From: an uncultured Caryophanales bacterium
Lineage (GTDB): Bacteria > Bacillota_I > Bacilli_A > RF39 > UBA660
Direction of reading: 5' to 3'
Length of the DNA stretch: 53,857 nt
Assembly (NCBI GenBank): GCA_946539445.1
Contig: CAMNHK010000007.1
Coordinates: 1 to 53,857, forward strand
A program made the translations under genes and the position numbers. A model generated the notes under the pieces. The model saw only the letters and a program-made list of their open reading frames with translations. It did no database searches and had not been told where the DNA came from. This document shows positions 10,988 to 40,153 of this stretch, in pieces. How positions within the stretch are numbered: position 1 is the stretch's first letter; each line of letters starts with the position of its first letter.

Positions 10988-11344
10988 ATGATAAAAACTA
11001 TTGTGATTGCATATTGCATTGTTTTATATTTATCCATTCCAGGATTTATAGGAAAAGCCGGCTATAATTGGCTTTTAGGATTTATACCATTCTTAAATTT
11101 TTACTTATTTATAAGAGTATTAAACATAAAACCAATCCTATTAATTCTAATTGGAATTTTACTAATTATTTCACCTTTTCGTTCTTTTATCGCAACCGCA
11201 ATGATTGTTTATTTACCATTTATGATAGGAGATTGCTACGAAACCAATCTAACGTATTCTTTTCTAGGACTCATAATGCCATTTTTCATATTTCCGTTTA
11301 TTGCCTATTTCCACGGATATTATTTATATGAGGGGGTAGAATAA
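10988..11344 (+). CDS. Small membrane protein, DUF5684-like
   Basis: A 118-residue protein with four hydrophobic segments. The motif GKAGYNWLLGFIPFLNFYLF resembles the DUF5684 core (K/AG..GW...IP..N.Y), found in small Firmicute membrane proteins often near signal peptidases. The match is by eye. The stop overlaps the start of the transglutaminase-like gene, so the two are co-translated and may act together at the membrane. Confidence 0.75.
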   Translation: MIKTIVIAYCIVLYLSIPGFIGKAGYNWLLGFIPFLNFYLFIRVLNIKPILLILIGILLIISPFRSFIATAMIVYLPFMIGDCYETNLTYSFLGLIMPFFIFPFIAYFHGYYLYEGVE

Positions 11345-12237
11345 TGAGATTTTTTAAAAAACATCGATTTTTAACCATAATTTTATTAGTATTTAGTTTC
11401 TTTCTATACGAAAATTTCACAAAAGCCGTAGACTATGATCGAAACACCGAAAAAGAATCCAACCATTTTGTAAATGAGTTATATAAAAGTGATGATTCCA
11501 TTTACAATAATTACTTATCCGAAGAAGATCAAAAAATGTATGACTTAATACTAAGTATGGCCAAAAACTATCAAATTAGGAAAGTAATTCCCTTAGAAGA
11601 ATATAATTGTGAAGATTATGTAGATTGTTCTGATTTTATTGATACTGCCAATAGTGCACTTTACGTCGATCATCCAGAACTTATGAATTATGCAGGATAT
11701 CGATGGAGATATCATAATCATATACTAACGCTTTCGTTGCAATATTCCTATCATTTACCAATCAAAGATACAATTGGACTTCTACGAACGGAAAAGATAA
11801 TAGCAAATATTGAAGAAAAAACAAAAAATATGACCGATCAAGAAAAAATATTATATGTTTATAATTGGATGGGAGAAAATAATACCTATGATAATATATT
11901 TACCTATCTATCAAAAAATCAATCCATCTATAACGTGTTTGTAAAGAAAAATGCTGTATGTGCAGGTTTTGCCAAAGCAAGCCAAATTATATTTCAAAAA
12001 ATTGGTATCGAATCTTATGTAATACAAGGAAGTTCTAATGTAGAACACATGTGGAATATTGTGAAATATGAAGATAAATACTATTATTTTGATTCTACCA
12101 TAGCGGTATCCGTTAAAAATAAAAACAGTTTACATTACTACGATGGTCTAAAACAATCTGAAATGAATTACTATACCGTAAAATTCCCAGATTGGTACCC
12201 AAAAGTAGAAAAAACAAATATGTTTGAAATCCAATAA
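11344..12237 (+). CDS. Membrane-anchored transglutaminase-like protein
   Basis: A 297-residue protein with one N-terminal membrane helix (about 9-22) and an extracellular transglutaminase/papain-like domain. The catalytic triad is visible: C206 in NAVCAGFAKA, H235 in VEHMWNIV and D250 in YYYFDSTIA. Bacterial members of this superfamily act as proteases or protein crosslinkers; the substrate is unknown. It overlaps the DUF5684-like gene by 1 base. It is the first of three transglutaminase-like proteins in the window (others at 26467 and 31760). Confidence 0.88.
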   Translation: MRFFKKHRFLTIILLVFSFFLYENFTKAVDYDRNTEKESNHFVNELYKSDDSIYNNYLSEEDQKMYDLILSMAKNYQIRKVIPLEEYNCEDYVDCSDFIDTANSALYVDHPELMNYAGYRWRYHNHILTLSLQYSYHLPIKDTIGLLRTEKIIANIEEKTKNMTDQEKILYVYNWMGENNTYDNIFTYLSKNQSIYNVFVKKNAVCAGFAKASQIIFQKIGIESYVIQGSSNVEHMWNIVKYEDKYYYFDSTIAVSVKNKNSLHYYDGLKQSEMNYYTVKFPDWYPKVEKTNMFEIQ

Positions 12238-30405: not shown

Positions 30406-30993
30406 ATGTCAAAATTATATTTTCGATATGGAACAATGAATTGTGGAAAGAGCTCATCCTTAATGCAAGTAGCCCATAATTACAATGAAAATGGAAAAAG
30501 AGTAGTCGTTATAAAATCCAGTATCGATACCAAAGCAGACGATCAATTAGAATCTAGAATTGGTTTAAAAAGAAAAGTAGATGTTTTAATTGGTCAGGAT
30601 AAATCATTTGAACCATACTATGAAGATTGGAATCAAGACGTAGCCTGTATATTAGTAGATGAAGCACAATTCTTAACCAAACAACAAGTAGAAGAATTAT
30701 GGATGGTATCCAAAATGTATGATATTCCAGTCATCTGCTATGGTCTAAGAACAGACTTTCAAGGAAATTTATTTGAAGGAAGTAAAAGATTACTAGAACT
30801 ATGCGATGAAATTGAAGAATTAGTAACCATTTGTCAGTGTGGAAAACGTGCTAAATTTAACGGACGATTTGTAAATGGAAAATTTGCCTTAGAAGGAGAA
30901 AGCATTCTAATAGATGGATCCAAACGAAACGTTGAATACAAACCAATGTGTGGAAAATGTTATATGAAAATGAAATATCCCAACAAGAACTAA
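30406..30993 (+). CDS. tdk: Thymidine kinase
   Basis: A 195-residue type II thymidine kinase that phosphorylates thymidine in the salvage pathway. The P-loop is G9TMNCGKS16, the Walker B/catalytic DE is D85-E86 (VDEAQF), and the structural zinc site is C143, C145, C182 and C185. The lasso region (FNGRF..LEGESILIDGSKRNVEY) is normal. AAAGGAG before the ATG supports the start. Downstream hairpin overlaps the stop codon. Confidence 0.95.
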   Translation: MSKLYFRYGTMNCGKSSSLMQVAHNYNENGKRVVVIKSSIDTKADDQLESRIGLKRKVDVLIGQDKSFEPYYEDWNQDVACILVDEAQFLTKQQVEELWMVSKMYDIPVICYGLRTDFQGNLFEGSKRLLELCDEIEELVTICQCGKRAKFNGRFVNGKFALEGESILIDGSKRNVEYKPMCGKCYMKMKYPNKN

Positions 30994-31007
30994 AATGTTC
31001 TTGTTTT
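30982..31007 (+). terminator. Intrinsic terminator containing the tdk stop
   Basis: AACAAGAAC (30982-30990), loop TAAAAT holding the TAA stop, GTTCTTGTT (30997-31005), T. Confidence 0.85.
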
Positions 31008-31028: not shown

Positions 31029-31037
31029 TGATATAAT
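31029..31037 (+). promoter_or_regulatory. Extended -10 promoter of the LRR operon
   Basis: TG, A, then TATAAT at 31032-31037, 22 bases before the ATG. Confidence 0.7.
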
Positions 31038-31059: not shown

Positions 31060-31758
31060 ATGATTCAAATCAAAAACACCGTACTAAAAAACAATATTTG
31101 CTTTCAATTAGACAAAAAAAGCATGCCTATCACCGAAGAAGAAACTGCTAAAATAACAGACATAGTACTGGATCAAGAAGAGATAGAAGATACCATGGAA
31201 TTGTTTGATATCCGAGAATTAGAGTTTTTTCCAAACTTAGAATCATTAACATTACGAAACTTTGATTTAGATAATTATGACTTTACAACCTTCTTAAAGC
31301 TCGTACAATTAAGAGAGATAACCTTTGAAAATTGTGATTTTGAAAACTCCATTATCATCGCATCATTAAAAGTACAATCATTATCACTCAAAAACTGTAA
31401 TATTAAAGATTATAATTTTCTCTATGTAATGGACGAATTAAAAGAATGTACTGTTAATAAAGGAATCCTAGATATTCAAAAGCTCAATAATTTAGTAAAA
31501 TTAGAATATTTAGATACCTCCTACAGTAAAATAGAAGGAGACACAAAGGAATGGAAATTACCGGAATGTAGGGAATTATCCATCCATAATACAAACATAA
31601 TGGATTTAACCTTCACTTTAAATATGCCAAGAATTCAAAAAATAAGCATTTCCAAAAATCAATACGATGCCAACAAAAGCGTTATAGCTTTACTAAAGGA
31701 AAGAAATGTGAAATGTTTTAACGAACAAATTGTAGAATGGCAAGAGGAGGTACAGTAG
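31060..31758 (+). CDS. Leucine-rich-repeat-like protein
   Basis: A 232-residue protein with several LRR-like units (LEFFPNLESLTLRNFDLDNYDF, LVQLREITFENCDFENS, LKVQSLSLKNCNIKDYNF, LVKLEYLDTSYSKIEG), a solenoid usually used for protein binding. No signal peptide is seen. It ends 1 base before a larger transglutaminase-like gene and appears translationally coupled to it, which suggests a partner or an inhibitor/adaptor role. That link is inference. Confidence 0.78.
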   Translation: MIQIKNTVLKNNICFQLDKKSMPITEEETAKITDIVLDQEEIEDTMELFDIRELEFFPNLESLTLRNFDLDNYDFTTFLKLVQLREITFENCDFENSIIIASLKVQSLSLKNCNIKDYNFLYVMDELKECTVNKGILDIQKLNNLVKLEYLDTSYSKIEGDTKEWKLPECRELSIHNTNIMDLTFTLNMPRIQKISISKNQYDANKSVIALLKERNVKCFNEQIVEWQEEVQ

Positions 31759-31759
31759 A

Positions 31760-33790
31760 ATGCAACACTTTGATAAAACCTTTAAAGCCACTCCGAATGC
31801 TCCCTTAAATATTCACTGGATCAATGAATATTGTAAAAATTATCCAAAGGAAAAAATATTAGTAGAAGTGAATTCAACCATCGGATTAAACAGTAAAGAC
31901 TTAGAAGCATTAAATAACAATGTATGGATTCGAATTGCTGGTGCTTATGACGAAGATAGACAAAATCGCTATAAAAGAGAAAAATTTGGAAATGAAACCT
32001 GTGAAGAATACTATTATGAATCGGTTATCTATTCTAAACTAGAAACCATTCGCATTCTACAAGCGATAGAAGAAATGGAAAAAGGCCTATCTGCCAATTG
32101 GACCAATCTTCAAAAAATCGTCTACATATATGATTATTTAAAAAGACACATAACATATGATCCAAAATATGAACAAAAGCCTTCTAAAGAAGTACGAAGT
32201 TTAAGAGGATTAATTACCAAGCAAACTGTATGCGCAGGGTATTCTTTAATATTAAAAGAATTATTAGAACGCCAAAGAATTAAATGCCATTATGTAAGAG
32301 GTCACGGACACGCTTGGAATATCATAGAAGAAGGAGGAAAATTATATCCAGTTGATCTTACTTGGGAAAATTCCAAATTTCGATCTGGAGAATCAAAAAC
32401 TTATGATTATTTAGGAAAAGAGATTGAAGAATTTAATAAACATCATATTCCCGATGATAGAGAGCCAATGAATCATTATCAACATAAACTTTCAGTCTTC
32501 AACTCAACCATTATTCGACAAATGGACAGCATCCTAAATCGAGAAAGAGATTACCAAACGACAACTTATCACGCAACGAGAAAAGATAAAAGTGAATTTC
32601 AAATTGCCCAAGTTGGAACGAAAACGATTGAGGGAGTAAAATATTATCGTTATTACTATCAAGAAATATTACCAAACGGCAAAAAAGGAGATCCCAAGAT
32701 TTTCTATAGTGAAAGTAATATTAGTAATTATATTGATAAAAGAAAATTTGGTCATCCAGTAAATCCAGAATATGAGCATGCTATCACAGGCGTGTTATTC
32801 TCAAAAGAAAACATAGAAGATAGTGAAAAAAGAAATACTGGATATATTGGAAGAGTAACGAAAGAAGAAGATTTAAAACAAATATATAAAGACTATCATG
32901 ACATCCCAAAACCATTGGATAAAATCAAAAGATTTCATTATCCTACTAGAGTATTTCATAGAAAAGATGGAACCGTTTTCATTGCTCAAAGAACAATGGA
33001 AAACCCAAGTATCATTGGAGAAGATAGTGTTTATCAATATGATTTATTTGAAATCACAACAGAAAAAGGAAAAGAAGTCTTAAAGAAAAATGTAATATTT
33101 ACCGAAAAACCATTTTTAGGAGATTTCCGTTCGGGAATAGCCGATGACTATCTATCTAGATCAAGAATTGACCGTAAAATAAAAGAAGCCGGAGGATATA
33201 TGGGTTACTATGATCAACAGGGATTTAGAAACTACAACCCAAGACTGAACCAGTATTTTGATCGTTCAAAAAAAATAGAAGAAAAGCCAAGAATACAAAT
33301 ACCAACCTTTGAAGAATGCAAAGACTTAGTAACGAAATATGAAATAGATGCAAAAACCAATAAAGTCGTTAAAAAAGGAACCCATACCAATATTGATAAT
33401 AAAGACTTAGAAAAAAGAGCCTACTTTGCCAATCTATGGTTAAGTGCAGCCGGAGTCAAAGTTGCTTATCAAGAAGATCCTTGGGGATATCAATATGCAT
33501 TTAACGAACCAGCAGAAGAACTATACCGACAAATCTTAAACAAATTTCAAGAAGATATTGAAGAAAAAGGAACCATTGACACCGAAGAAATGTTTCATCA
33601 AGCAGGAAAGTCTTCCTACAAATATGCCCAAGAAATTATCTTACGTTTATGCAAAACCCCATCGCAAGTATATGCCATCAACGACTTATTTCACGAAGCC
33701 ATAGCACCGGATAAAATACAAACAAAAGATCCAGAAGCTCTATATGACTGGGCATACATTGGATCTAAAAGAGAAGAAAGGAATTATTAA
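31760..33790 (+). CDS. Large transglutaminase-like protein
   Basis: A 676-residue cytosolic protein. The transglutaminase/protease-like core is in the first third: C158 (KQTVCAGYSL), H184 (GHGHAWNII) and D199 (YPVDLTWENS). The C-terminal two thirds are unknown, with a helical end (SSYKYAQEIILRLCKTPSQVYAIND). It is the third transglutaminase-like protein of the window and the largest. Start is supported by GAGGAGGT upstream. Neighbours on both sides are 1-2 bases away, so the three genes 31060-35400 form one unit. Confidence 0.82.
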   Translation: MQHFDKTFKATPNAPLNIHWINEYCKNYPKEKILVEVNSTIGLNSKDLEALNNNVWIRIAGAYDEDRQNRYKREKFGNETCEEYYYESVIYSKLETIRILQAIEEMEKGLSANWTNLQKIVYIYDYLKRHITYDPKYEQKPSKEVRSLRGLITKQTVCAGYSLILKELLERQRIKCHYVRGHGHAWNIIEEGGKLYPVDLTWENSKFRSGESKTYDYLGKEIEEFNKHHIPDDREPMNHYQHKLSVFNSTIIRQMDSILNRERDYQTTTYHATRKDKSEFQIAQVGTKTIEGVKYYRYYYQEILPNGKKGDPKIFYSESNISNYIDKRKFGHPVNPEYEHAITGVLFSKENIEDSEKRNTGYIGRVTKEEDLKQIYKDYHDIPKPLDKIKRFHYPTRVFHRKDGTVFIAQRTMENPSIIGEDSVYQYDLFEITTEKGKEVLKKNVIFTEKPFLGDFRSGIADDYLSRSRIDRKIKEAGGYMGYYDQQGFRNYNPRLNQYFDRSKKIEEKPRIQIPTFEECKDLVTKYEIDAKTNKVVKKGTHTNIDNKDLEKRAYFANLWLSAAGVKVAYQEDPWGYQYAFNEPAEELYRQILNKFQEDIEEKGTIDTEEMFHQAGKSSYKYAQEIILRLCKTPSQVYAINDLFHEAIAPDKIQTKDPEALYDWAYIGSKREERNY

Positions 33791-33792
33791 AT

Positions 33793-35400
33793 ATGAAAAA
33801 TAAACAATTACTATCCATTTTAATTACAATCATCTATACAGGAATTACTTATTATATGTTTTATCCAGCAATCAATATCCATAGTTTAGAATTTTGGATG
33901 TATATCATAAGTATTATACTTGTATTTTCCATTGCTCAAATCCCAAATATGTTAGGAGAAATCGACTATTTATTTTCACGAAGAAAGAGAAAAAAATGTC
34001 CATACTCTGTAAAACCATTCCTAACAATTCCAACAATAATTATAGGAATTATATTGATTAATTTTATCTTATCACCAATCTTTAATGCCAAAGTCTACTA
34101 TAACAGAATTCAAGTAGAAGAGGGAAACTTTGAAGAAGAAGTAAAAGAAGTAGATTTCAATAAATTACCATTGCTAGATCGTAAATCCACGCTAAAAATT
34201 GGAGACAGAACCATGGGACAAATGAGTGAATTGGTCTCACAATTTGAGGTAAGTGATCAATATACACAAATCAATTATCAAAACGAAATTATCCGAGTAA
34301 CACCATTAGAATACAATGGACTAATTAAATGGTTTACCAATCGAAAAAATGGAATCAAAGCCTATATTACAGTAAATTCAACAACTGGATCTGCTCAACT
34401 AGTAAAAATAGAAAAAGGAATGAAATATGCACCATCTGCTTATTACAACGAAAACTTATACAGAAAACTACAAATGAGTTATCCAACCAAAATATTTGAT
34501 AGTGTAAATTTTGAAATCGATAATGAAGGACATCCCTATTGGATTGCTAGTTCTGTTCAATATAAAGGAGTAGGCTTAAGAAGGGAAGTAGAAGGAATTG
34601 TTATATTCGATCCAATTACCGGAAAAAGCAAATTCTACCATGTTGATGAAGTTCCAAGCTGGGTAGACCATGTATATGAAGCAGACTTAATTTTAGAGCA
34701 AGTAGCCGATTGGGGAAAATACAAAAATGGATATTGGAATTCAGTATTTACTCAAAAAGAAGTAGTAGAAACAACCACTGGATATAACTATTTGGCTCAA
34801 GACGATGACATCTATTTATACACGGGAATAACTTCCGTTATTAGTGATGAATCCAATATCGGATTTATCCTAACAAATATGCGTACGAAAGAAACAAAAT
34901 TCTATGGAGTGGCAGGAGCCGAAGAATATTCGGCAATGGACTCAGCAAAAGGTCAAGTCCAACAAATGAAGTACACATCCACCTTCCCATTATTAATAAA
35001 TCTAAATGGTAAGCCAACATACTTAGTATCTCTAAAAGATAATGCCGGACTAGTAAAAATGTATGGTTTTGTCGATGTAGTAGACTATCAAAAAGTAGTG
35101 GTAACCGATAGTTCCAAAGGAATTGAAAAAGCAGCAGAAGCTTATCTAAATGAAGTAGGAGAAGATACAGCAAAAGCAAAATATGAAAAACAAATCATAG
35201 TTTCAGAAATTAAAGACGTAATTATGGATGGAGATACCTATTACTATTTTAAAGATCAAGAAGGGCAAAAATATAAAGTATCCATAAAAGTTGGAAAAGA
35301 CACATTACCATTTTTAAAAGAAGGCGATACTCTAACCATTGCCTATCGCAAAGAGCAAGAAGTAATCAGTGTAACCGAAATTATATCAAATGGAAATTAA
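33793..35400 (+). CDS. Conserved membrane protein with large extracellular domain
   Basis: A 535-residue protein with three N-terminal membrane helices (about 7-25, 34-52, 76-96) and a long extracellular part. The outer region has repeated beta units (ITVNSTTGSAQLVKIEKGMKYAPSAYYNE..., VIFDPITGKSKFYHVDEVPSWVDHVYEAD, ILTNMRTKETKFYGVAGAEEYSAM) that recall PepSY-like modules. Similar large membrane proteins occur in Firmicutes without known function. It is the last gene of the LRR/transglutaminase unit. Confidence 0.78.
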   Translation: MKNKQLLSILITIIYTGITYYMFYPAINIHSLEFWMYIISIILVFSIAQIPNMLGEIDYLFSRRKRKKCPYSVKPFLTIPTIIIGIILINFILSPIFNAKVYYNRIQVEEGNFEEEVKEVDFNKLPLLDRKSTLKIGDRTMGQMSELVSQFEVSDQYTQINYQNEIIRVTPLEYNGLIKWFTNRKNGIKAYITVNSTTGSAQLVKIEKGMKYAPSAYYNENLYRKLQMSYPTKIFDSVNFEIDNEGHPYWIASSVQYKGVGLRREVEGIVIFDPITGKSKFYHVDEVPSWVDHVYEADLILEQVADWGKYKNGYWNSVFTQKEVVETTTGYNYLAQDDDIYLYTGITSVISDESNIGFILTNMRTKETKFYGVAGAEEYSAMDSAKGQVQQMKYTSTFPLLINLNGKPTYLVSLKDNAGLVKMYGFVDVVDYQKVVVTDSSKGIEKAAEAYLNEVGEDTAKAKYEKQIIVSEIKDVIMDGDTYYYFKDQEGQKYKVSIKVGKDTLPFLKEGDTLTIAYRKEQEVISVTEIISNGN

Positions 35401-35477: not shown

Positions 35478-37715
35478 ATGATCAAGCTAAAAAACGTTTC
35501 AAAATACTACTACAGTAAAGGAGTAGTCGCAACTGGTTTTTCTCATATAAATTTAGAATTAAATATGGGGGAATTTGTTGCCATAACAGGAGAAAGTGGT
35601 TCTGGTAAAACAACTCTTCTAAACGTAATATCTGGCCTAGATACATACGAAGAAGGCGAGATGTACATCAATGGAGAAGAAACCAGTCACTATATTGCGA
35701 AAGACTTTGAAGATTATCGAAGAAAGAATATTGGCAATATTTATCAAAACTTTAACTTAGTAAATAGTTATACGGTATACCAAAATATAGCTCTTGTATT
35801 AATGTTAAATGGAGAAAAAAATATAAAGGAAAGAGTAATAGATTTAATCAAAAAAGTTGATCTATATAAATTCCGTAATACTAAGGTATCCAAACTATCA
35901 GGAGGACAAAAACAAAGAGTAGCCATTGCTAGAGCCTTAGCAAAAGATGTTCCTATTATCATAGCCGATGAACCAACTGGAAACTTAGACAAAAAAAGTG
36001 CCACGAGTGTACTAAAACTATTAAGTGAATTGTCCAAAGAAAAATTAGTCATTATTGTTACTCATAACTATGATCAAATTGAACCATATGTAACTAGAAA
36101 AATAACCATGCATGATGGAAGAATTCTAGAAGATGTAAAGGTAAAGGATTACGAAAAGGGAATCGAATGTGTTCCTGCTAAAACCAAAGGATTATCCATT
36201 GGCAATAAGATTCGATTAGGTCTTAGAAACACTTTTAACATCGTTCCAAAATTCTTATTACTATTAGTAGTTTATTTCTTTGTAGTAGCCGCTTTAATGG
36301 GAGAATATGCTATCTTCCAAAAAGAGGAAACAATTTCCAAAGAAGATGGTATCAATTTTGTTTTTGATACATCAGACTTAACCAGAATTGTAGTAAAAAA
36401 ACAAGATCATTCCGCATTTGATGATACAGAATTAGAGAATTTAAAAGAAAATTCGAAAGTTCGATACATCATTGAAAATGATATACTTCTAGATTCTGAA
36501 GATACTATAAGAGACAAAGAAATGAAATACTGGGTCAATTCAACTTCTCTTCCAATCGAAGTATTTGAAGGAGAATTAGACTATGGAAGAATGCCGGAAA
36601 ATGCTCATGAAGCTATTATGGTAATGAATAAAGATAGTTATTATTTCTATAACGGAAAAGAAGAAGCCATTAATAAAGACTTTTATTATTTGGATCAGAC
36701 AAATGCTGATAATTTTGACGAGAATTTAAAAGTTACCATTGTTGGATTACAATACAATAATGATTTAGATTATGGAAAAACAAAATTATACGTTGAAAAG
36801 GAAATGATTAACAAACTACAATATAAAATACATCAAAGATATAGTAAATTATATGTAAAATTTCAAGGCAAAAAGCATCCAGTATATAGTTATGCTACCA
36901 TGTATCAAATTACCCCTAACACTTCCGTTCCAATGGGAGAGGCATTTATTAGTGAAGATGCAGACTACCAATGTCCAAAATATAATTGTTTATGGAGCAC
37001 TGTCGAAGTAACCAATGAAAATTTATATTTCCAAGAAAGTAAATCATTCCTAGTAAGTAAGAAATACAATCGAAAAAACATTACAGAAATATTATATTTA
37101 CCAGGTTATAATAAAGATAATTATGATTATGAATATAATGGTAGAATTTATGTAAATGATATAGATTATCAATTATTATTTAATAAAGGAACCTATCAAA
37201 TCAGTGTATTTGCCAAAGATAAAGAAAAAATTGATCCATTAGTAAAAGAACTAAATAACAAGGGTTATCAAGCTCTAGCCATCAAAAACACATTAGTACA
37301 AGAAGAAATATTCCGCTATTTACGAATTCTTAAAATGATTTTAACAATTATCCTAGTAATAGCATTATTCTTTATATCGTACTTTATTATAAAAATTATA
37401 TTAAAGAGTAGAAATACGTATTTTTCCATTATCCGTATGTTAGGAGGAACAAAAGCTACAACAAGACAATTACTTACCATTGAATTATTTACCGTTGCCA
37501 ATTTAGCTTTTATACTGTTTGGAAGCCTAATTCTATTCAATCACTTAGGATGGATGGATGTTGGAATTCTAACGGATATTTATGATTATTTCACTCCAAA
37601 GACCTATTTAGCATTATATTTAATAATCATTGGCATGTCGATTATTAGTAGTATGAGATATTCTCGTAAACTATTTAAAGATAGTGTCATGGTTACTATA
37701 AGAGAGGAGGTCTAA
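35478..37715 (+). CDS. Fused ABC ATPase-permease (MacB/FtsX type), first of a pair
   Basis: A 745-residue protein. The N-terminal ABC domain has Walker A (GESGSGKTTL), signature LSGGQKQRVAIARAL, Walker B (IIIADEPTG) and the H-loop (VTHNYD). One membrane helix at about 260-280 is followed by a large extracellular domain and three C-terminal helices (about 615-640, 670-695, 715-735) in the FtsX style, with a MLGGTKATTRQLL elbow. Such proteins move substrates or force across the envelope, or sense antibiotics. It is 2 bases from the second copy, so they probably make a heterodimer. GGAG precedes the ATG. Confidence 0.9.
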   Translation: MIKLKNVSKYYYSKGVVATGFSHINLELNMGEFVAITGESGSGKTTLLNVISGLDTYEEGEMYINGEETSHYIAKDFEDYRRKNIGNIYQNFNLVNSYTVYQNIALVLMLNGEKNIKERVIDLIKKVDLYKFRNTKVSKLSGGQKQRVAIARALAKDVPIIIADEPTGNLDKKSATSVLKLLSELSKEKLVIIVTHNYDQIEPYVTRKITMHDGRILEDVKVKDYEKGIECVPAKTKGLSIGNKIRLGLRNTFNIVPKFLLLLVVYFFVVAALMGEYAIFQKEETISKEDGINFVFDTSDLTRIVVKKQDHSAFDDTELENLKENSKVRYIIENDILLDSEDTIRDKEMKYWVNSTSLPIEVFEGELDYGRMPENAHEAIMVMNKDSYYFYNGKEEAINKDFYYLDQTNADNFDENLKVTIVGLQYNNDLDYGKTKLYVEKEMINKLQYKIHQRYSKLYVKFQGKKHPVYSYATMYQITPNTSVPMGEAFISEDADYQCPKYNCLWSTVEVTNENLYFQESKSFLVSKKYNRKNITEILYLPGYNKDNYDYEYNGRIYVNDIDYQLLFNKGTYQISVFAKDKEKIDPLVKELNNKGYQALAIKNTLVQEEIFRYLRILKMILTIILVIALFFISYFIIKIILKSRNTYFSIIRMLGGTKATTRQLLTIELFTVANLAFILFGSLILFNHLGWMDVGILTDIYDYFTPKTYLALYLIIIGMSIISSMRYSRKLFKDSVMVTIREEV

Positions 37716-37717
37716 GT

Positions 37718-40153
37718 ATGATAAGAATAGAAAAAGTAAATAAATACTTTAACCGTTTCCGTAAAAATCAAAATCATGTCATCAATAACACAAGTCTAAC
37801 ATTAGAAGATACCGGACTAGTAGCATTACTTGGACCATCCGGTTCCGGAAAAACAACTCTCTTAAATGCCATCGGTGGATTAGATAAAATTAATAGTGGA
37901 AAAATATACATCAACAACAAAAAAATATCTGGACATAATATCCATAGAATTGATAAATTAAGAAATTTAAATATAGGATATATCTTTCAAGATTATAAAC
38001 TAGTAGACTATTTATCCGTCTATGATAATATTGCTTTATCTTTAAAAACAATTGGTATTAAAGATAAAAAAGAAATTGATAAAAGAGTAACCTACGTACT
38101 AGAATGTGTCGGAATGTACCGATATCGAAAAAGACCAGCTAGCATGTTATCAGGAGGAGAGAGGCAAAGAGTAGGGATTGCAAGAGCAATCGTAAAAAAT
38201 CCAAATATTATCATAGCCGATGAACCAACAGGAAATCTAGATAGTAAAAACTCATTAGAAATCATGAACATTATAAAGAAAATTAGTGAAGATCGATTAG
38301 TTATCTTAGTAACTCATGAAGTAAACTTGGCAAAATTCTATGCCTCTAGAATCATCGAAATTGAAGATGGAAAAGTAGTCAAAGACTATAAAAATGAACA
38401 AGAAGAAAACCTAGATTATGCAATTGATAATAATATCTATTTAAAAGACCTAGAAAAAGCAAATCATATCAAAGACTTAGGCATGGATATCTATCGAGAT
38501 AAAGATCAAGAATTAAATGTCGAAATCGTCTTAAAAGGAAATAATATCTTTATCAAAAGTAAGAATAATCAAAAAATTGAAGTAGTAGACGATAATACTT
38601 CCATTGAATTCATCAATGACCACTATAAAACAATGGCCAAAAAAGATTTAGAATCTATAAAATTTGATTTTAAAGATAAACTAAAAAATCCAGAAAAACT
38701 ACGTTATTCTTCTATTTTCAATCCAATTACCTTTATAACCAATGGATTTAAAAAAGTACTAGAATATTCTTTCCTTAAGAAAATATTACTAATTGGTTTC
38801 TTTTTATCCGGATTCTTTATTATGATGAGTACCTCTAGAATTGCAGCCAATTTAACCATCCATGATAAAGATTTTGTAGATACCAATAAAAACTATTTAA
38901 AACTTTACACCAATAAATTAAGTGTTGCCCAATACAATGAATATTCTATGCTAGACTCCGTAAACTATATTATACCTGGAGACAGTAAAGTGACATTCAC
39001 TGTAAAAGTAGATGATTATTATCAAACAACATACGTAAATGCCAATATTACAGGATCTCTATCAACCATTAACATGATACAAGAAAAAGATATCAAGTAT
39101 GGAAGAATGCCAGAAAACGCGAAAGAAATTGTAGTAGATGAAATGGTTATAAAAAAATCCATGGATAATATGATGAATACCAATAAAATGATGGGACTAT
39201 CTAAACCAAAAGATTTCTTAAATCGAATTGTCAAACTACCAAATCTTCCAGACTATAGAATAGTAGGAATCTCCGATATCGAAAGTCCTTCCATTTATAC
39301 TTATGATTCAGAATTTACAAATATTTTATATAACAATACCAAAGAAGAAGATATGTATTCAAACTGGGAAGATCAAGAAGCCAATTCCAATGAATTTCAA
39401 GATTACTTATTATTCACATCTAGAGTTGTATTAAAAGAAGGAAGATGGCCAGAAAATGACTATGAAACAATCGTTGACATTTCCAATAAAGAATCCATGA
39501 AATTAAACAAAGAAATATCAAAAAAAATAAATGGTCAAAAATTAATCGTAGTAGGTTATTATGATTCAGAAGAAGAAATTAACAAATATTTAGTCAACTT
39601 TAATATGATCAAAGTATTATTAATCAAGAATTCAAAAAATGCAATGATATATCCAAATAATAAGATTCAAGCATTACAAGACTTTAGAGAGCGAGAATAC
39701 AACATAGAAGACTCCTATGATGCTTCTAAAACAAAATATATGAAAGATAGAGAAGCTGGAACAAAAGTTGCGACTACATCCGCTCTAGTAGTACTAGCTA
39801 TATCTTTAATAGAAATAATCTTAATGTTACGCAGTTCCTTCCTATCAAGAATTAAAGAAGTAGGAATTTATCGTGCCATTGGATTAAAGAAAAAAGATAT
39901 TTATATTATGTTTAGCGGAGAAATAGTGGCAATCACATTATTCGCAAGCCTACCAGGAATCTTAATAAGTGCTTATATTTTCAAACAAATCAGTTTAATA
40001 AAATACTTGCAAAATGAATTTTTAGTAAATCCATTCCTTGTAATATCCGCATGTATCATAGTATTAGTATTTAATTTAATTTGTGGACTATTCCCAGTCT
40101 ATAACACACTTCGAAAAAGACCAGCTCAAATACTTGCTAGAACAGACATTTAG
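37718..40153 (+). CDS. Fused ABC ATPase-permease, second of the pair
   Basis: An 811-residue partner of the preceding protein with the same layout: Walker A (GPSGSGKTTL), signature LSGGERQRVGIARAI, Walker B (IIIADEPTG), then a regulatory stretch rich in charged residues (about 220-325), one helix, a large outer domain and three C-terminal helices with an IYRAIGLKKKDI FtsX elbow. The two are diverged rather than recent duplicates. The gene starts 2 bases after its neighbour. A hairpin follows. The substrate is unknown; LPS-free cell-wall or peptide transport is possible. Confidence 0.9.
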   Translation: MIRIEKVNKYFNRFRKNQNHVINNTSLTLEDTGLVALLGPSGSGKTTLLNAIGGLDKINSGKIYINNKKISGHNIHRIDKLRNLNIGYIFQDYKLVDYLSVYDNIALSLKTIGIKDKKEIDKRVTYVLECVGMYRYRKRPASMLSGGERQRVGIARAIVKNPNIIIADEPTGNLDSKNSLEIMNIIKKISEDRLVILVTHEVNLAKFYASRIIEIEDGKVVKDYKNEQEENLDYAIDNNIYLKDLEKANHIKDLGMDIYRDKDQELNVEIVLKGNNIFIKSKNNQKIEVVDDNTSIEFINDHYKTMAKKDLESIKFDFKDKLKNPEKLRYSSIFNPITFITNGFKKVLEYSFLKKILLIGFFLSGFFIMMSTSRIAANLTIHDKDFVDTNKNYLKLYTNKLSVAQYNEYSMLDSVNYIIPGDSKVTFTVKVDDYYQTTYVNANITGSLSTINMIQEKDIKYGRMPENAKEIVVDEMVIKKSMDNMMNTNKMMGLSKPKDFLNRIVKLPNLPDYRIVGISDIESPSIYTYDSEFTNILYNNTKEEDMYSNWEDQEANSNEFQDYLLFTSRVVLKEGRWPENDYETIVDISNKESMKLNKEISKKINGQKLIVVGYYDSEEEINKYLVNFNMIKVLLIKNSKNAMIYPNNKIQALQDFREREYNIEDSYDASKTKYMKDREAGTKVATTSALVVLAISLIEIILMLRSSFLSRIKEVGIYRAIGLKKKDIYIMFSGEIVAITLFASLPGILISAYIFKQISLIKYLQNEFLVNPFLVISACIIVLVFNLICGLFPVYNTLRKRPAQILARTDI

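Follow-up and report, generated by a model that had tools for sequence, protein, structure and literature searches.

Among the classes named for polymorphic toxin systems are toxins of the Tox-TGase type and immunity proteins of the Imm-LRR type (PMC3482391; Zhang et al. 2012). In the passages of that paper considered here, Imm-LRR is given next to T5SS toxins and a pairing of TG with LRR is absent. The locus described below resembles such polymorphic toxin systems in that a transglutaminase-fold (TG) domain with intact catalytic residues adjoins an LRR gene, and also through the sister clade of this TG protein, which is borne by T7SS-type proteins. It differs from them in that the TG protein lacks an export domain, the LRR gene lies upstream, and the enzyme has a long C-terminal extension which no T7-like member shows at full length. 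EAT14, a toxin of contractile injection systems, likewise has a TG-like domain and acts in the cytosol of E. coli, killing the cells when expressed inside them (PMC11297309). As described in the parts of PMC11297309 considered here, it has an N-terminal DUF4157 carrier and no LRR partner is mentioned. The closest structure to the TG domain is that of Streptococcus pyogenes TglA (PDB: 9crn), a protein of 379 residues without the length of the extension; a literature search, which covered few subscription papers, found no paper on this structure.

Internalins are secreted surface proteins. The LRR protein of the locus shares a cap and repeats with Listeria internalin A (PDB: 2omv), and yet, in contrast to Listeria-type internalins, it has no signal peptide.

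Layout of the locus and the membrane gene

The window, i.e., the whole stretch of 53,857 nucleotides that was analysed, comes from an uncultured Caryophanales bacterium, and the features of interest are collected in Table 1. The three tight same-strand open reading frames on which the earlier note had remarked are real, with gaps of 1 and 2 bases. Such spacing is not unusual in the window, where further same-strand neighbours also overlap or lie 1–2 bases apart. The extended -10 element placed at 31029 is likewise present, as TGATATAAT, 22 bases ahead of the first ATG of the LRR gene; it is unlisted by the -35/-10 scan because a good -35 is absent. The terminator scan found 1 site versus 2.1 expected from shuffles, and the assignment of the hairpin therefore rests on its position and not on number.

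Table 1. Features of the LRR-TG locus (positions in the window)
Feature	Position	Strand	Description or basis
Terminator-like hairpin and T-run, end of upstream thymidine kinase (TK) gene	30982-31005	+	Terminator scan; lies just past the TK stop
Extended -10 promoter element TGATATAAT	31029-31037	+	Read directly from the sequence
LRR gene	31060-31758	+	232 aa; small internalin-type LRR protein, proposed inhibitor/immunity partner of TG
TG (transglutaminase-fold) gene	31760-33790	+	676 aa; residues 1-245 beta-alpha cap and TG core, 246-676 extension
Duplicated part of the extension	32537-33295	+	Residues ~260-390 and 388-512; hhalign of the halves
Helical C-terminal region	33287-33787	+	Residues ~510-676; model
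Membrane-protein gene	33793-35400	+	535 aa; outside the LRR-TG module

The earlier note took all three genes for one unit, a reading which it tied to conservation of the gene order among relatives. As a conserved unit the trio does not hold up: the order is broken in most relatives, and apart from the window only the sister genome G022 showed it, with a contig break intervening. The membrane gene was found in 31 of 59 relatives (10/21 genera), where the pair is nearly always absent, while most pair carriers are without an adjoining membrane gene. In two genomes (G033 and G001) a long distance separates the membrane gene from the pair, and in one further pair carrier (G016) no membrane gene was found. 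The membrane gene is thus a class-wide neighbour that follows the pair here by chance and lies outside the module.

These data bear directly on the proposal that the LRR protein, the TG enzyme and the membrane protein act together in a complete envelope pathway. The tight spacing in the window and the shared order in G022 are compatible with it, as is G578, where ~2.4 kb separate the pair from a membrane gene on the opposite strand. Against these stand the membrane genes without a pair, the pairs without a membrane gene, and the lack of any signal peptide or membrane helix in either protein of the pair, which leaves an envelope link unsupported. The gene order largely refutes the proposal and, together with the missing export signals, led us to reject it as very improbable. 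The membrane protein itself gave no Pfam PepSY match at E<=1, contrary to the PepSY-like outside ascribed to it, and no NCBIfam match or convincing PDB sequence match. Of the three helices claimed for it, the hydrophobic stretches at residues ~26–57 and ~71–102 are clear and the first (~5–23) is weaker.

The LRR protein and the TG enzyme

The product of the first gene is an LRR protein, as had been recognised from the sequence: it scores 36.4 bits with Pfam LRR_4 (cut-off 27) and combines LRR_4 repeats with an internalin-type cap. An LRR profile (A5) matched internalin A (PDB: 2omv) at 8e-40. A sequence scan detected neither a signal peptide nor a transmembrane helix (top 19-residue hydropathy 0.86).

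The product of the second gene scores 19.7 bits with Pfam Transglut_core (PF01841), below the cut-off of 23, whereas four T7-like TG relatives score 24.9–28.3 bits. Its description as transglutaminase-like nevertheless holds, the fold being backed by a structural model and by 9crn. The model of the TG domain (pLDDT 85.3) matches 9crn (Z 12.7) and 4xz7 (Z 9.7); the best match, over residues 4–249, is to 9crn, with 188 residues aligned at an rmsd of 4.9. Moreover, 9crn was the sole match of the TG profile among PDB sequences (E value 4e-21). Based on the model, the enzyme domain adopts the transglutaminase fold. The catalytic triad consists of C158, H184, and D199, and the Cys-His-Asp triad is retained in 38/41 rows of an alignment of TG relatives. 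The sequence scan revealed no signal peptide, leader or membrane helix in the TG protein, which begins at the TG cap and lacks the N-terminal trafficking domain of T7SS polymorphic toxins.

The extension that follows the core (~430 residues) contains an internal duplication, as its two halves align with each other in hhalign (probability 95.4, E value 1.7e-8). Its model has a pLDDT of 84.2 and a pTM of 0.57. No close PDB match was found, and neither Foldseek nor VIA-align returned anything above Z 3.3, which is not proof of a new fold. The helical C-terminal region also occurs without a TG domain in two other loci (L159 and L167).

Pairing of LRR and TG genes across genomes

A partnership between the LRR protein and the enzyme, also suggested earlier, was borne out by the genome searches. 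An LRR relative lies <=4 kb from TG in 26/35 TG-subfamily places among 386 family genomes (35 TG rows at E<=1e-40, next row 1.8e-26), and the two genes form a conserved two-gene module. Some of the genomes searched had also gone into the making of the profiles (A4 and A5), so that their rows match by construction; in genomes outside profile building, an LRR gene is nearby in only 3/8 TG places. Reciprocally, TG adjoins 21/24 LRR places at E<=1e-40, a count biased towards TG because A5 was made from LRR genes near TG. A less biased count used A2, an LRR profile from the window's genus alone, and found an LRR gene near 26/31 readable TG-domain loci outside that genus; here L132, a non-genus locus with its upstream side cut, was excluded, and L157 was scored as a miss because A2 did not pick up its LRR gene (E value 1e-3). 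Among ordinary TG loci used as controls, 0/25 had an LRR gene beside them, after two of the 27 scanned had been dropped as belonging to the pair-type subfamily (L019, with LRR, and L008, without). At most 7 candidates were scored per genome in the TG and LRR searches, and misses are possible.

The 9/35 TG places without an LRR gene within 4 kb count against the module reading. Several proteins with an intact triad stand without LRR (L158, L164, L150, and L151), and the LRR is therefore not always needed nearby. Conversely, LRR relatives without a TG neighbour make up 3/24 at E<=1e-40 and 14/40 at E<=1e-20 (40 of 61 LRR rows, E<=7.6e-21). Several solitary LRR relatives occupy a fixed place next to pyruvate formate-lyase-like genes, named by eye.

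Type II toxin-antitoxin modules consist of two co-directed genes, usually with the antitoxin first. The solo pairs match this layout, the LRR gene being directly upstream of TG in 25/25 and mostly overlapping it. LRR and TG distances are correlated (r 0.87 in 34 pairs; 0/2000 permutations as high), a result in which binding is not separable from co-inheritance. The 34 pairs, used for both gene order and correlation, were picked for having a nearby LRR gene, with L157 added by eye.

The pair is carried by 6/39 genomes of the genus, and the TG subfamily by 32/386 of the family, at differing genomic places. Between the window's genome (G000) and G022, identity is 54.7% for LRR and 60.7% for TG; of seven flanking genes compared, six are less diverged (71–93%) and the seventh, an HTH gene, is at 53.8%. 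The corresponding dN/dS values are a rough guide only, dS being over 1 throughout. Such patchy spread, varied location and divergence faster than most neighbours would suit an anti-phage (abortive infection) system, in which the LRR protein would recognise a phage protein and then set the TG enzyme free. Neither protein, however, had a match at E<=1 in PADLOC (2023 library), which speaks against a known defence system, and no defence genes were recognised among the pair's neighbours. Full-length relatives are absent from phage records, plasmid records and viral contigs. Three short matches to the TG core occur in phage records and one in a plasmid record, with none in viral contigs, and the idea of a phage or plasmid element gene was dropped on this ground. 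We consider the anti-phage reading improbable. Our literature search, with its coverage of few subscription papers, found no paper on this LRR-TG pair.

T7SS-linked relatives and a possible function

A sister clade of nine rows, with branch support of 100/100, has the same TG domain, and several of its members adjoin T7SS genes. These include an EssC-type ATPase (L161, L153), DUF4176 (L160, L161), and WXG100 (L154); EssC and TG share a contig in G522, G633, and G063. The LRR gene is downstream of TG in all 9 rows, which is where immunity genes sit, and thus occupies the immunity position. Four T7-like proteins give a match to IreB (PF06135) after the TG domain, one above the cut-off (29.5 bits, cut-off 25) and three below it. 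EssC above cut-off is absent from three solo-pair genomes, and the solo pair therefore seems independent of T7SS. In the window's genome EssC is on another contig (G000:C11:28929-32801), and no secretion gene was among the window neighbours examined.

We tentatively favour, at somewhat short of an even chance, a self-contained cytosolic enzyme-inhibitor (toxin-antitoxin-like) module, a non-secreted form of a T7SS toxin-immunity pair, in which the LRR protein probably holds the TG enzyme in check. The observations behind it are the pair with its gene order, the triad, the modelled fold of the enzyme domain, the missing export signals and the T7SS-linked relatives; the named Tox-TGase and Imm-LRR classes, the toxicity of EAT14 and the divergence of the pair beyond most of its neighbours also speak for it. 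Within this enzyme-inhibitor model we infer binding, inhibition, toxicity, trigger and target. The LRR protein would be made first and bind the TG-fold cysteine enzyme, which would remain silent in the cytosol. Loss, degradation or titration of the LRR protein might then free the enzyme to modify or cleave cell proteins, and growth would stop. The solo module would be the non-secreted version of the pair which the sister clade carries on T7SS carriers with the LRR in the immunity position. It is possible, if doubtful, that the pair is a new intracellular toxin-antitoxin or suicide module, consisting of a TG enzyme with a so far unmatched duplicated C-terminal domain and an LRR antitoxin, whose enzyme-inhibitor pair recurs in T7SS toxin-immunity loci. 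With its 676 aa the enzyme would be unusually long for a toxin-antitoxin toxin, which counts against a toxin reading, as does the lack of a PADLOC match.

The main rival is a regulated cytosolic protein-modifying enzyme, no toxin, with the LRR protein as its substrate-recruiting or activating subunit. LRR solenoids are general binding scaffolds, and at one WXG100-bearing locus (L180) LRR and TG are naturally fused in a single chain, an arrangement more in keeping with an adaptor than with immunity. Subfamilies fixed at one place, some without the catalytic Cys, also suggest a house function: three pairs have lost this residue and retained the LRR, and two of them (L143 and L149), in two genera, adjoin ruvA/ruvB-like genes and look like a stable host use. 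Both parts of the L180 chain, however, come from lineages more distant than those of the pair (TG E value 4e-19), and in the T7-like loci the LRR protein, itself without an export feature, is encoded downstream of a large secreted-type protein, which would be odd for a target recruiter. We regard this adaptor role as unlikely, though it deserves more weight than a defence function.

If the enzyme-inhibitor model is true, it would provide a tractable system of one enzyme, one small partner and natural inactive variants, in a host family of Bacilli represented here chiefly by metagenome assemblies. It would also assign LRR proteins a specific task within the bacterial cell, and would link secreted toxin-immunity pairs to resident cytosolic modules via one conserved enzyme and its inhibitor.

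Composition of the module

The three open reading frames that the earlier note had joined into one envelope-linked pathway are all present in the window, with gaps of 1 and 2 bases and an extended -10 element at 31029; gene spacing of 1-2 bases is common elsewhere in the window. The identification of the first product as a leucine-rich repeat (LRR) protein is solid, and the second was correctly called transglutaminase-like (TG), although its Pfam score falls under the Pfam cut-off. The term "PepSY-like" for the membrane protein is unsupported, and gene order in relatives limits the proposed three-gene unit to the LRR and TG genes.

For this comparison, each of the three proteins was searched in 59 relatives. 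The membrane protein is present in 31 genomes and 10 of 21 genera. Searches of 35 relatives from the window's genus gave five (G022, G033, G016, G001, and G028) in which a full-length-type TG gene, whole or broken, adjoins an LRR gene; with the window included, the pair is carried by 6 of 39 genus genomes. The order in G022 is that of the window, the membrane gene being divided between two contig ends (C76 and C45). In G016 the pair occupies the same place, before an AMP-binding gene, and no membrane gene was found anywhere in the genome, while in G017 the membrane gene stands at that place, before the AMP-binding gene, without the pair. Both G033 and G001 contain the pair and the membrane gene, but separately. 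Of the 66 context sources examined, window counted, just three contain the membrane gene: the window, G022, and G578, in the last about 2.4 kb from the pair and on the opposite strand. Because the membrane gene is mostly independent of the pair across relatives, the conserved module is LRR plus TG. The ABC-ATPase/FtsX genes of the window are also found in G022, and are absent at this place from G016, G017, and G003.

Features of the window, and of one related locus, by nucleotide or residue position
Feature	Position	Length	Description
LRR gene	31060-31758 (+)	232 aa	short internalin-type solenoid
TG gene	31760-33790 (+)	676 aa	
TG protein, N-terminal part	residues 1-245		beta-alpha cap and papain-like core; C158, H184, D199
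TG protein, extension	residues 246-676		duplicated beta-rich unit and helical end; duplication by hhalign, 95.4%
Membrane gene	33793-35400 (+)	535 aa	
ABC-ATPase/FtsX fusion genes	35478-40153		two adjoining genes
Second, ordinary TG protein	11344-12237	297 aa	Transglut_core, 32.7 bits; without LRR partner
Locus L180	5222-6727	501 aa	natural LRR plus TG single chain; WXG100 genes nearby

The model of TG residues 1-245 (pLDDT 85.3, pTM 0.69) is closest in the PDB to S. pyogenes TglA (9crn; Z 12.7, rmsd 4.9, 188 residues aligned), which is also the sole PDB sequence match of the TG profile. Of 41 rows, 38 keep the Cys-His-Asp triad; the exceptions are L143, L149, and L145. The extension, modelled by itself (pLDDT 84.2, pTM 0.57), has no PDB match above Z 3.3. 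Its helical C-terminal region was found without a TG domain at L159 and L167. On a 19-residue hydropathy scale, no segment of the LRR or the TG protein exceeds 0.94.

Strength of the pairing

Profiles of the TG cap-plus-core (A4, 29 rows) and of the LRR protein (A5) were run over 386 family genomes. The TG subfamily is sharply bounded, with 35 places in 32 genomes at E<=1e-40 and the next place at 1.8e-26. An LRR place lies within 4 kb in 26 of the 35, where about 0.03 would be expected by chance (own arithmetic); reciprocally, 24 LRR places reach E<=1e-40, and 21 of them adjoin a TG place. For the eight TG places outside the A4 building set, an LRR was present in three. Because the A5 profile itself draws on LRR genes close to TG, the count with A2, the first LRR profile, drawn from the window's genus alone, is fairer: outside that genus, an A2 match is close by in 26 of 31 readable TG-domain loci. 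In a control set of 25 loci with ordinary TG proteins, no LRR match was present. LRR and TG distances are correlated (r 0.87, 34 pairs).

Relatives beside type VII secretion genes

Nine TG domains, in host proteins of 434-2025 aa, form a clade with support of 100/100. An EssC-like FtsK/FHA ATPase adjoins L161 and L153, DUF4176 proteins lie beside L160 and L161, and a WXG100 protein beside L154; in G522 and G633, EssC and TG are on one contig. T7SS neighbours at L152, L162, L181, and L183 were not supported at profile level. The proteins of L161, L154, L162, and L160 carry tandem repeats of about 50 residues after the TG domain, with a weak to moderate match to IreB (PF06135).

In T7SS loci, the gene after a toxin is usually its immunity gene. 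The LRR gene is downstream in all nine rows of this clade and upstream in all 25 solo pairs, i.e., pairs without a T7SS carrier. L150 and L151 branch among the solo pairs and have TG without LRR; L151 also adjoins EssC-like and WXG100 genes. An EssC gene is present in the window's genome, elsewhere than the pair, and no EssC was found above the cut-off in the solo-pair genomes G398, G454, and G582 (88-94% complete). For want of an export domain and of secretion genes among the neighbours examined, the window TG protein does not qualify as a T7SS polymorphic toxin, but may act like one.

Proposed working of the pair

No paper on the LRR-TG pair was found in the literature searched, which was covered in part. 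Tox-TGase and Imm-LRR appear as named classes in PMC3482391, and PMC11297309 describes a TG-like toxin that kills E. coli from inside.

Several observations speak against the toxin-antitoxin-like reading set out below: TG genes occur without an LRR within 4 kb (9 of 35 subfamily places), LRR genes occur without TG, inactive pairs are retained at fixed places, and L180 encodes both in a single chain. Together they make an adaptor role for the LRR a candidate. Small LRR genes without TG were seen in several genera (L171-L173, L176, and L184) beside pyruvate formate-lyase/activase-like genes, named by eye. In two genera, TG paralogues that lack the Cys and His of the catalytic triad retain the LRR gene (L143 and L149, in G398:C12 and G491:C23) and adjoin ruvA/ruvB-like genes, also named by eye; these are possible regulators.

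The solo pair retains the LRR, here encoded first, and an enzyme with the active triad, and has no export domain. We read this arrangement as resembling a toxin-antitoxin system, with putative toxin and antitoxin roles, in which the enzyme would be held by a bound inhibitor; binding, inhibition, toxicity, a trigger, and a target are inferred.
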